NCBI GenBank assembly: GCA_018971485.1
Contig: JAGXAQ010000001.1
Span: forward strand, 1 to 64,000
Origin: Pseudomonadota bacterium
GTDB lineage: Bacteria > Pseudomonadota > Gammaproteobacteria > Burkholderiales > REEB80
Length of the DNA stretch: 64,000 bases
Reading direction: 5' to 3'
The translations under genes were made by a program, and so were the position numbers. Within the stretch, counting starts at the first letter, position 1, and the number at the start of each line of letters is the position of its first letter. The notes under the pieces were generated by a model, which made no database searches, was not told the DNA's origin, and was given only the letters and a program-made list of their open reading frames with translations. This document shows, piece after piece, positions 56,876-60,935 of the stretch.

Positions 56876-57769
56876 TTAGCGATATAAATAATGATCAATC
56901 AGCAAGGCAGCAAAAATTAATGCCAGGTAAACAATGGAATAGCGAAACGTTTTTCTAGCCAGAATGTCACTATAGGAACGCACCAGCAAGACAGCATACC
57001 TTACAAATACCAGATCAAGCGTCAACGCCACAAGCAAATAGAACAAGTGGCTCATTCTTGCCGCATAAGGAAGCAGGCTCACGGCTGTCAGCATCAATGT
57101 ATAAAACAAGACATGTATACGGGTATAATGCTCCCCATGGGTTACCGGTAGCATGGGCATGCCTACCTTTTCATATTCTTTTCTTCTATACAATGCCAGC
57201 GACCAGAAATGGGGCGGGGTCCAGGCAAAGATGATCAGAAAAAGTAAAAGCGCATTTCCACTTACGCTTCCGGTCACAGCCGCCCATCCCAATACCGGGG
57301 GCATTGCTCCAGAAGCTCCGCCAATTACAATATTCTGTGGTGTTACCGGTTTAAGTAAAATGGTATAGATAATGGCATACCCAATAAATGTCAAAAGGGT
57401 TAGCCACATCGTCAATGAATTAACTTTCTGATCCAAGAGCCACAATCCCATTCCACCCGTCAGGGTCGCAAAAACCAGCGTCTGCAATGACGTGATTTCT
57501 CCCCTTGGAAGAGGCCTTGCCCGGGTACGGGCCATGGCAGCATCAATCTTTTGTTCTACCAGACAGTTAATAGCCGCAGCTGAACCTGCAACAAGTGCAA
57601 TTCCAGTGGTTGCATATAAAAGTAAAGATAACGGAACCATCCCAGGTGTAGCAAGGAACATACCTATAACAGCAGTAAAGACAATCAGCGAAACCACATT
57701 AGGCTTGGTAAGCCTTATAAACTGGCCTATCCGGCTGTATTTGCCTATGTTTGAAACAATCGCTGTCAT
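56876..57769 (-). CDS. ctaB: Protoheme IX farnesyltransferase (heme O synthase)
   Basis: UbiA-family prenyltransferase making heme O. The prenyl-diphosphate motif [20 protein letters not shown] and [20 protein letters not shown] are diagnostic; nine hydrophobic segments fit the fold. 297 residues. Its ATG overlaps the ctaA stop as ATGA. Confidence 0.95.
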
Positions 57770-58755
57770 CTAACACTCCTTGAATAAGCTGACGACTGAT
57801 AAATTAGATAATTGATTGTAACCAGCGTAACTAATAACAGTGCTGCACCAGCATTATGAGCCACTGCAATTGACAAAGGTAAATCCAGCTCGACGCTGGC
57901 AATCCCCAAGCCGACCTGGGCGCACAGCAAGCAGGCCAGAAGACCCCCCCACACCCTGAATCCGGATTCACGTACCAACCTCAATGCCAGCCATCCAATA
58001 TAACTAAACGTAACCAATGCACCTAACCGATGAACCCAGTGAATGGCAACAAGAGCAGAATAATCCAATGGTGCGCCCGAAGCTGTTTTTCCTAGACTCC
58101 TGAACAATTCAAACCCATGGGTAAAGTCCATTGGAGGGATCCATTGACCATTACAGGTTGGAAAACCTGTACAGGCCAACCCTGCATAATTGGTCGATGT
58201 CCACCCACCCAAGCCAATCTGAACGCAGAGAATAATGAAGCCAATAATCGCATAGGGTCGTAACCGGGCTATTGTTACCGATCGGGGTATCATTCCTCCT
58301 GGTAACTGTCGCAATGCAAGCCACCAGGCCAGTGCAAGGGTTGTCATTCCACCAAGCAAATGGGATGTCACTACGATTGGGCGCAAAAGTAGTGTAACTG
58401 TCCACATCCCCAGCAAAGCCTGAAAAATAACTGTTGCCAACAACGCAAATGGAAGCCCTAGGGGCTCCTGCAGCCGCCAGGATAAGCCTGCAATCAAGGC
58501 TATCAAAACAGCCAGCGTTCCAGCAAAATAACGGTGCATCATCTCTTTCCAGGCTTTAGCCTCCACCACAGACCGGCCTGGCCATTTGATTTCATCCTGA
58601 CGAACTTGTGCGCGAGTATCGGGAGCAGCGATCTGGCCATAGCACCCCGGCCAGTCCGGGCAACCAAGGCCAGCATTGGATTGACGTACAAATGCGCCAA
58701 TTATAACAACACAAAGAGCAAGAAAAGCAGTCAAGACTACCAGCTTTTTATACAT
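57766..58755 (-). CDS. ctaA: Heme A synthase (CtaA/COX15)
   Basis: Membrane enzyme oxidising heme O to heme A. Heme-ligand histidines are in [29 protein letters not shown] and [25 protein letters not shown] is the conserved cysteine loop. 329 residues with about eight membrane segments. All ligands look intact, which implies that the cell makes heme A. Confidence 0.95.
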
Positions 58756-59238
58756 CTTGAGTCATAACTCCAATCAATAGCATTCAAGCATCCTTTCTTA
58801 TAAAACCTACCTATCCCGCTTTCATGATTCATCATACCAGAGGCCTGTTTTATCTTGACTTACACTCAATTAAACAGGTTACATATGCAAACATATCCTA
58901 TGCCTGTTCTTCCCCTGGCTCCTAAAAGAATCCGTCTTATTCGTTTCAAGCCTTATCCTGGATGGACAGAAATGATAGCCTGCTGAACACTTCCCTAAAT
59001 TACACAGAAAGGACAGAACCTACACTTATAGCAACCCAATATAACAACCCAAAAAGGGATATTATAAAGAACTAATTAAAAGTTTCATAATTTCTACCCG
59101 GTTCATCCGGCCGGAAAATCTAAAAACAACCCCAAAAATAATTTCCAGGCTATAAATAAATACCTTCAACACTACTTACACCTAGACATGCCCAAATGCA
59201 CCAGCCTAGGCTGGTGCTGCCTTAACTAGGATGAACAA
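58756..59238. other. Interval between ctaA and the coxB-like gene
   Basis: 483 bases where related genomes usually have coxA, ctaG and coxC. I see no remnants of those genes. A 33-codon frame at 58885 is not convincing. A nine-base perfect hairpin at 59198-59217 follows the coxB-like gene but lacks a T run. Confidence 0.5.
59198..59217 (-). terminator. Hairpin after the coxB-like gene
   Basis: GCACCAGCC (59198-59206) pairs with GGCTGGTGC (59209-59217) around two bases, 21 bases past the gene's stop. No T run follows on the minus strand, so termination is uncertain. Confidence 0.4.
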
Positions 59239-60060
59239 TCACGGTAGCACCTTAGAAACCTGCTTGAAGGACTCAACCCAGACCTTGAAATGATGCCGGC
59301 CAACCACTCTTACCGGAACAGCCAGACAACCATGATAACTATCACATAACTGGGCTTGCGTATCCTGAAACAGCCCTGGTGGGCCTGCTTTAAACCAAAC
59401 TGTTCGGATTAGGCCAGATGATTGGGGAATACCTGGCTTGGTCCAGTACCAGGCAGTAATGACTGGGTTGGAAACCAGCCTTAACCGAACCAGTTGACCT
59501 GCTGGTACGAAAATAGGCAAAACGGCCTTGTAGGATAAGCCCGGACATGATTGAGAATCGACGGCCTGCCCTTCACACACGGATACCAGTCTGCTTGAAA
59601 CATGAATACCCTGCCTGGGGTAAAAATAATCCCATCCCCAACGATGCCCTGTTATCTGTATGGGCAGGATTGCTGTGTCTGGATAGGCAGCATCGAATAT
59701 AGTTTTACTGGCCGGATAGGCCATACCCACAAGAATGATAAAGGGGATAAGGGTCCAAATGATCTCAACTAGTATGCTTTCATGAAAGTGCCCCGCATCC
59801 GGCGCACCTAGTTGACGCTGTTTAAAAATAGAGTAAAACGTAAGACCAAGGGCCACAGCAAAGACAATCAAGCAGATCCAGAATACAATCAGATGAAGTG
59901 AATCCTGCTGTTTGTGGGCATGGATGACAAGTGGCTGGATAGCCTGCTTCGAATCCGCGTAAACCTTTCCTGAGGCCAGCGCCATCAAGAACCATCCTAT
60001 CACTTGCAGTACTTTACCCATCAGGTTGTATTGTCTTGAAATTTCCAAAAAACTCTCCAT
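59239..60060 (-). CDS. Cytochrome oxidase subunit II-like protein lacking most CuA ligands
   Basis: Membrane protein of about 273 residues: N-terminal signal or anchor, two membrane helices (IVFWICLIVFAVALGLTFYS; then HFHESILVEIIWTLIPFIIL) and a periplasmic cupredoxin domain with ITGHRWGWDYFYPRQGI. This is the COX2 layout. But the CuA site is changed: the usual VIHSFW His is Thr (VITAWYW), and the CxExCxxxHxxM set reads QAQLCDSYHGCL, leaving only one Cys and the His. A full CuA centre is not possible in the normal way. The WxW...YPxQGI stretch also resembles quinol-oxidase subunit II (CyoA). No subunit I gene is adjacent. I chose the ATG at 60060; ATG at 60021 is possible. Confidence 0.82.
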   Translation of the reverse strand: MESFLEISRQYNLMGKVLQVIGWFLMALASGKVYADSKQAIQPLVIHAHKQQDSLHLIVFWICLIVFAVALGLTFYSIFKQRQLGAPDAGHFHESILVEIIWTLIPFIILVGMAYPASKTIFDAAYPDTAILPIQITGHRWGWDYFYPRQGIHVSSRLVSVCEGQAVDSQSCPGLSYKAVLPIFVPAGQLVRLRLVSNPVITAWYWTKPGIPQSSGLIRTVWFKAGPPGLFQDTQAQLCDSYHGCLAVPVRVVGRHHFKVWVESFKQVSKVLP

Positions 60061-60218: not shown

Positions 60219-60935
60219 TCATTCTTGACCTTCAATTAACCGATGTATCCAGTTCATCCTGTCTTCTGCTGCAAGAGTATTAACCCAGTTCCCAGGAGGT
60301 TCTAAATCCAGATGAGCTAACCGTGGCACCCTAATCAAGGGAGGACACCCTAGCAACTCTGAAAGCGAATCCACATTTTCATCTGCAACGAGCATGTCGG
60401 GATCAAGCATATTGGCTATCCATCCACATAAGGGAATCTGCCGCTTAACAATAGCCTCATAGGTCAGTAACGCATGATTGATACAACCCAGGCGGATTCC
60501 AACCACGAGAATTACAGGCAACCCCATCAGGAGGGCTACATCAGCCATTGTCAACCCATCATTAAAAGGAACCATCAATCCTCCAACCCCTTCCACAACC
60601 ACTCTATCTGATTCCTTTCCCAGAACAGTTAACGCCTCCTGCAAAACCCCCATATCCATCCTGATACCCTCTATTTTGGCCGCAAGGTGGGGGGCAACAG
60701 GAAGGCGAAAACGATATGGGCTACAAAATTCATCCGGGAAATTTACCGATGCAGCACGGGATAGTGCGTCCACATCTTCCCAAATTTCCACGCCAGAACG
60801 CTCGACACTTCCAGCCGCAACCGGTTTCATCGCTGTGACACGAATACCAGTTTGAACCAAGGCCCGAATCAGCCCGGATGCAATCAAGGTCTTCCCAATA
60901 CCCGTATCTGTTCCCGTGATAAACCACCCCTTCAA
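60219..60935 (-). CDS. bioD: Dethiobiotin synthetase
   Basis: ATP-dependent closure of the ureido ring from DAPA. P-loop FITGTDTGIGKT at the very start, then MKPVAAGS and VEGVGGLMVPFN. A longer frame reaches 61004, but a TTG at 60935 overlaps the bioC stop as TTGA and has a GGAGG site at ideal spacing; it starts LKGWFITG, where this family begins. 238 residues. Last gene of the biotin operon. Confidence 0.95.
   Translation of the reverse strand: MKGWFITGTDTGIGKTLIASGLIRALVQTGIRVTAMKPVAAGSVERSGVEIWEDVDALSRAASVNFPDEFCSPYRFRLPVAPHLAAKIEGIRMDMGVLQEALTVLGKESDRVVVEGVGGLMVPFNDGLTMADVALLMGLPVILVVGIRLGCINHALLTYEAIVKRQIPLCGWIANMLDPDMLVADENVDSLSELLGCPPLIRVPRLAHLDLEPPGNWVNTLAAEDRMNWIHRLIEGQE

Follow-up and report, generated by a model that had tools for sequence, protein, structure and literature searches.

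The window, a 64,000-nucleotide stretch of DNA, holds a coxB gene whose product has lost its CuA site, in a genome that has no cytochrome c oxidase. In the textbook view, CoxB carries the copper center through which electrons enter the oxidase. On balance, the gene seems to be an orphan remnant of a caa3-type coxB that survives as a non-redox membrane hairpin after deletion of its operon. As synteny shows, a deletion took out coxA, ctaG, coxC, surf1, and sco together with the part of coxB that encodes the C-terminal cytochrome c domain, and the lineage now respires oxygen with Cyo and bd, both quinol oxidases. The subunit left behind has lost its CuA site and presumably no longer carries electrons. 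The open frame and the retained TM2 residues suggest a hairpin kept for a non-redox role in the membrane, the likeliest job being, we infer, that of a partner in docking or assembly, either for subunit I of a heme-copper oxidase or for the neighboring heme O and heme A synthases. The cupredoxin domain may be eroding or merely structural, and heme A made by CtaA would go to the Cyo oxidase, turning it into a ba3-like enzyme.

The history of the locus can be read from its gene order. In the only congener compared (G001), the genes run bioF-bioH-bioC-bioD-coxB-coxA-(small genes)-coxC-surf1-sco-ctaA-ctaB-rpoH. The window locus has the same flanks, and the gap between coxB and ctaA is only 483 bp:

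56876..57769, reverse strand: ctaB/cyoE, heme O synthase, intact, with 90/92 near-invariant sites kept
57766..58755, reverse strand: ctaA, heme A synthase, intact, with 69/72 near-invariant sites kept, including E71, H74, H132, H242, H300, and the Cys pairs
58756..59238, no strand: deletion site, where the coxB cytochrome c tail, coxA, ctaG, coxC, surf1, and sco are missing by synteny with the congener
59242..60021, reverse strand: CuA-less CoxB, 260 codons from ATG60021, a start homologous to that of the congener; stop codon at 59239-59241
60219..60935, reverse strand: bioD, the upstream neighbor that anchors the synteny with the congener

Synteny with the congener bears out the original prediction that coxA, ctaG, and coxC are missing between coxB and ctaA; for ctaG and coxC, this is an absence at the locus only. 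A tblastn search of the 483-bp gap detected no remnants of coxA, coxC, surf1, or sco. CoxB of the congener bears a C-terminal cytochrome c domain, as is typical of caa3 oxidases, and the window CoxB stops just short of this domain. Since the window genome (G000) and the congener are sisters in the CoxB, CtaA, and CtaB trees, the window gene is a vertically inherited coxB, orthologous by synteny to that of a caa3 operon. About 22 bp past the coxB stop, at 59199-59216, lies a perfect 18-bp palindrome, CACCAGCCTAGGCTGGTG, which occurs once in the window and has no T tract.

The gene belongs to the coxB family by its profile matches as well. Its ORF, 59239-60060 on the reverse strand, starts at ATG60060, and the frame is open as far as TTG60075; the alternative starts are TTG60048 (with GGAGAG), ATG60060, and TTG60075. 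Residue numbers given here follow the 278-aa numbering from TTG60075. The frame is unbroken across every aligned CoxB column, with none of the stops, frameshifts, or truncations that would define a pseudogene; the sole missing part is the cytochrome c tail. The COX2_TM profile (PF02790) matches with 33 bits (cut-off, 22.8), which identifies the two-helix hairpin, and the COX2 profile (PF00116) falls just below its cut-off at 21.2 bits. The CoxB profile TIGR02866 covers residues 55-268 with 87.3 bits and does not reach its equivalog cut-off of 147.7. A Foldseek search with the structural model had subunit II of cytochrome c oxidase as its top hits. A pattern search of public genome contigs for this protein gave 16 matches, none of them relatives, and a literature search on CuA-less subunit II other than the known quinol oxidases found nothing relevant.

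The original prediction had likened an aromatic stretch to that of quinol-oxidase subunit II and had considered a quinol-fed aa3-type oxidase. A subunit like CyoA or QoxA would share the absence of CuA with CyoA and would fit both the YP-x-Q stretch and the fact that the only family-A oxygen reductase of the genome is a quinol oxidase. However, the CoxB profile (87 bits) outscores QOXA (42 bits; cut-off, 241) and CyoA (22 bits; cut-off, 266), and the gene is syntenic with coxB. The aromatic stretch itself loses its meaning as a marker, since W146, W148, Y150, and Y152 are near invariant in intact CoxB. There is also no partner for such a subunit: no subunit I gene adjoins the window coxB, cyoA is intact in the cyo operon next to its own CyoB, and no subunit I is left free. 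We therefore reject the window protein as subunit II of a quinol-fed oxidase, a highly improbable reading.

The domains of the window CoxB and the positions of its former copper ligands are as follows:

59692..59916, reverse strand: two-helix COX2_TM hairpin, residues 54-128 (profile, alignment, and AlphaFold model helices)
59272..59691, reverse strand: degenerate cupredoxin (CuA) domain, residues 129-268 (alignment and AlphaFold model)
59455..59457, reverse strand: CuA His position 207, here Thr (alignment)
59344..59358, reverse strand: CuA loop, with 240 Cys to Gln, 242 Glu to Gln, and 244 Cys kept (alignment)
59323..59334, reverse strand: CuA positions 248, His kept, and 251, Met to Leu, with a new Cys at 250 (alignment)

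The CuA ligands expected of a CoxB are His, Cys, Glu (or a backbone site), Cys, His, and Met. When the window protein is aligned with 87 intact CoxB sequences, the six ligand columns read T-Q-Q-C-H-L in the window protein and HCECHM (82 proteins) or HCQCHM (5 proteins) in the relatives. Four of the six ligands are replaced and only C244 and H248 remain, in agreement with the earlier reading by eye, which had found Thr, Gln, Gln, and Leu beside one Cys and one His. The remaining pair could in principle belong to a redesigned metal or redox center, or to disulfides, formed by Cys244, His248, and the new Cys250 or by a pair of new cysteines in the loop that follows residue 165. The arrangement C244-x3-H248-x-C250 and the two loop cysteines all lie in the periplasmic domain. 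Yet the ligand columns offer no second His or Met, none of the relatives has these changes, and the cupredoxin part is modeled with low confidence; we consider such a center highly improbable. The domain as a whole keeps 31/80 conserved columns (conservation of at least 0.75 over residues 129-272). Because the CuA ligands are lost and the genome has neither CoxA nor another CoxB, the window protein presumably cannot relay electrons.

That genome is 100% complete and encodes no CoxA; its COX1 family consists only of CyoB and a qNOR-type NorZ. Genome-wide, the only COX2-family protein besides the window gene is CyoA, so there is no other CoxB, and no SURF1 was found either. The search proposed at the outset for coxA or cyoB thus returned cyoB with its own adjacent cyoA and no coxA, and a second coxB with a coxA elsewhere, which would have spoken against the finding, is absent from the genome. 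The idea of an electron route that bypasses CuA falls as well: with no CoxA in the genome, there is nothing to bypass to. The oxygen reductases are cyoABCD and cydAB. Since the congener has CoxA and NorZ but no Cyo, the window lineage has given up its cytochrome c oxidase and taken on a quinol oxidase instead. Contig 31 of the window genome (L040:2619-5246) carries a bc1 complex whose Rieske, cytochrome b, and c1 heme motifs are intact, despite the lack of a cytochrome c oxidase, and c-type cytochromes are encoded in the genome. Contig 34 (L041:7237-15905) has a cluster of NorZ, NnrS, a cupredoxin, and a copper nitrite reductase; the nitrite reductase ORF apparently includes a cupredoxin piece at its N terminus. 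Because the bc1 complex, c-type cytochromes, and the copper nitrite reductase cluster are all present, nitrite reduction is probably the sink for bc1 electrons.

The heme A genes beside coxB are intact, as had been noticed: their near-invariant sites are almost all kept, those of CtaA with the His, Glu, and Cys residues that catalysis should require, and the branch of CtaA is not unusual. The CtaB branch is about 3 times that of the congener (0.24 versus 0.08), and its conserved sites are nonetheless retained. Since CtaA evolves normally, heme A is probably still made. Among 60 relatives surveyed, ctaA is found in every genome with a standard CoxA and is missing from those without CoxA, except in the window genome and G009, and both of these carry cyo. 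G009 (L173:9206-11294) keeps ctaB and ctaA without coxA or coxB and has cyoABCD, and it is a second candidate for a heme A-containing Cyo oxidase. When expressed in Paracoccus, which makes heme A, the cyoABCD genes of E. coli yield a functional ba3 oxidase (PMC9145763), and Acetobacter has a ba3 quinol oxidase alongside ctaA (PMC5158111). Most likely, heme A enters CyoABCD in the window lineage. The prediction is that, in a lineage that has abandoned cytochrome c oxidase, the heme A synthase it kept supplies a Cyo-type quinol oxidase.

Is the coxB remnant simply decaying? The gene may have drifted unselected after the deletion, its frame staying open by luck, and in the form of slow decay this is a serious rival, even if a somewhat unlikely one. 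In trees built with LG+G4, the CoxB branch of the window genome is 2.43 and that of the congener 0.19, about a 13-fold difference; the corresponding values are 0.30 and 0.22 for CtaA and 0.24 and 0.08 for CtaB. About half of the near-invariant residues of CoxB are gone (20/39 kept, versus 69/72 for CtaA and 90/92 for CtaB). Constraint over most of the protein is strongly relaxed. Decay would also account for a codon usage at the 4th percentile among the genes of the genome, for the loss of the Shine-Dalgarno site of the ancestral start, and for a weaker fold model than that of an intact relative (AlphaFold pLDDT of 66 versus 79, with 59 sequences for each). Synonymous sites are saturated between the window coxB and that of G001, the only congener. 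Against decay stands the frame. Under neutral decay, counting point mutations only and with domain-specific divergence, the probability of finding no stop is 5 × 10−4 to 1 × 10−3, and that of never having passed through a stop, again with point mutations only, is about 2 × 10−5 to 4 × 10−5. Both figures exclude frameshifts, of which there are 0 in 780 bp. Chance survival of the open frame is improbable.

Retention is also uneven, which argues against unselected drift. The hairpin keeps 25/37 conserved columns versus 31/80 in the cupredoxin domain, and 9/11 conserved aromatics are retained, among them all six near-invariant Trp. In TM2, the core residues R87, E104, W107, T108, P111, I114, L115, P121, and A122 are kept, and the same TM2 residues persist in independent lineages, described below. 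The suggestion that this is a decaying gene kept in frame was therefore right about relaxed constraint on most of the protein; it does less well with a frame that would stay open by chance about once in a thousand cases or less and with a hairpin that is selected in related genomes.

A narrower version of the hairpin explanation holds that only the hairpin is selected and that the cupredoxin domain is a passenger on its way to a short form without it. The better retention of the hairpin fits this, as do the short CoxB proteins and an ORF at L082, both described below, which have no cupredoxin domain. The cupredoxin part alone, however, would be free of stops under neutral drift with a probability of only 3 × 10−3 to 5 × 10−3, and it retains the aromatics W209, W227, and W266. 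We regard selection restricted to the hairpin as unlikely. A hairpin with a non-redox role, attached to a domain that is eroding or structural, remains the reading we prefer.

While checking the window finding, we came across two still shorter relatives, which we call mini-CoxB: one of 96 aa in G083 (L180:8860-9147, reverse strand) and one of 94 aa in its congener G160 (L214:7042-7323, reverse strand). The loci read bioF-bioH-bioC-bioD-[96 aa]-ctaB and bioD-[94 aa]-ctaB-sco, respectively. Each protein comprises only the pair of CoxB helices behind a signal peptide, and both end in IFG followed by the stop; the family of these genomes differs from that of the window genome. Because two genomes of another genus in that family have a full coxB-coxA operon at the same place, mini-CoxB there arose by deletion. 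G160 has a separate, complete aa3 operon with its own intact CuA subunit, so its mini-CoxB is not needed as the helix part of that oxidase. Mini-CoxB is under purifying selection: between G083 and G160, dN is 0.27 and dS is 1.98 (dN/dS of about 0.14), and in the last 66 codons 24/63 changes are nonsynonymous, versus 74% expected without selection (P = 2 × 10−9).

A further CuA-less remnant occurs in Rhodocyclaceae MAG-172 (G060). Its ORF at L082:8268-8876, forward strand, has the CoxB signal, TM1, and TM2 and no cupredoxin domain, and it adjoins sco-ctaA-ctaB. We considered L082 as a sign of a need for heme A and rejected it, as G060 holds an intact caa3 operon elsewhere. Two other genomes flagged for a stop or a short frame (G108 and G064) have ordinary cox operons, and a TM-only CoxB at L058 is, at a guess, a frame error in the MAG.

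The three CuA-less lineages (window, G083/G160, and L082) share 9/18 near-invariant hairpin residues, namely the nine TM2 core residues listed above. If losses were independent, 4.1 would be expected (P = 6 × 10−5); this value is optimistic, as similarity, which favors TM2, led to two of the three lineages. The dN/dS of mini-CoxB is free of this detection bias. The window CoxB has the traits of mini-CoxB (the R, E, WT, P, IL, and PA of TM2, a lack of CuA, and a locus without coxA) but still carries its degenerate cupredoxin domain. We tentatively suggest, as a possibility short of an even chance, that CuA-less CoxB proteins, from full length down to the 94- to 96-aa mini-CoxB, form a recurring, undescribed class. 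Their hairpin would do something that needs neither CuA nor CoxA, probably together with the heme O/A synthases or with another oxidase, and selection would keep it after loss of the cytochrome c oxidase. The persistence of a CoxB hairpin without copper after its oxidase is lost, with measurable purifying selection in one genus or more, implies that this part of the protein has a second role, possibly in oxidase assembly or heme delivery.

Among known systems, the closest is CoxB of the caa3-type oxidases of the relatives (TIGR02866; PF02790 plus PF00116). The window protein resembles it in synteny, in the helix hairpin, in the cupredoxin outline, and in its position in the tree beside coxB of the congener. 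It differs in having lost 4/6 CuA ligands and the cytochrome c tail, in the lack of a coxA in the genome, in its roughly 13-fold-longer branch, and in scoring below the equivalog cut-off. CyoA and QoxA share with it a subunit II fold without CuA, but they have their own profiles and a subunit I partner in the operon, and the window gene lies far below both profile cut-offs. In protists, algae, and Dielis wasps, the helix part of COX2 is a separate gene, COX2A, and the two halves are thought to form a heteromer that works in place of COX2 (PMC9895450). The mini-CoxB of G083 and G160 is likewise the helix part alone, but there is no matching CuA half in the window genome or at the mini-CoxB locus. 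Finally, Brucella ovis has also lost cytochrome c oxidase function; there, coxB is broken by a frameshift and coxA is present (PMC2677664), whereas in the window genome coxB has stayed open and coxA is gone.
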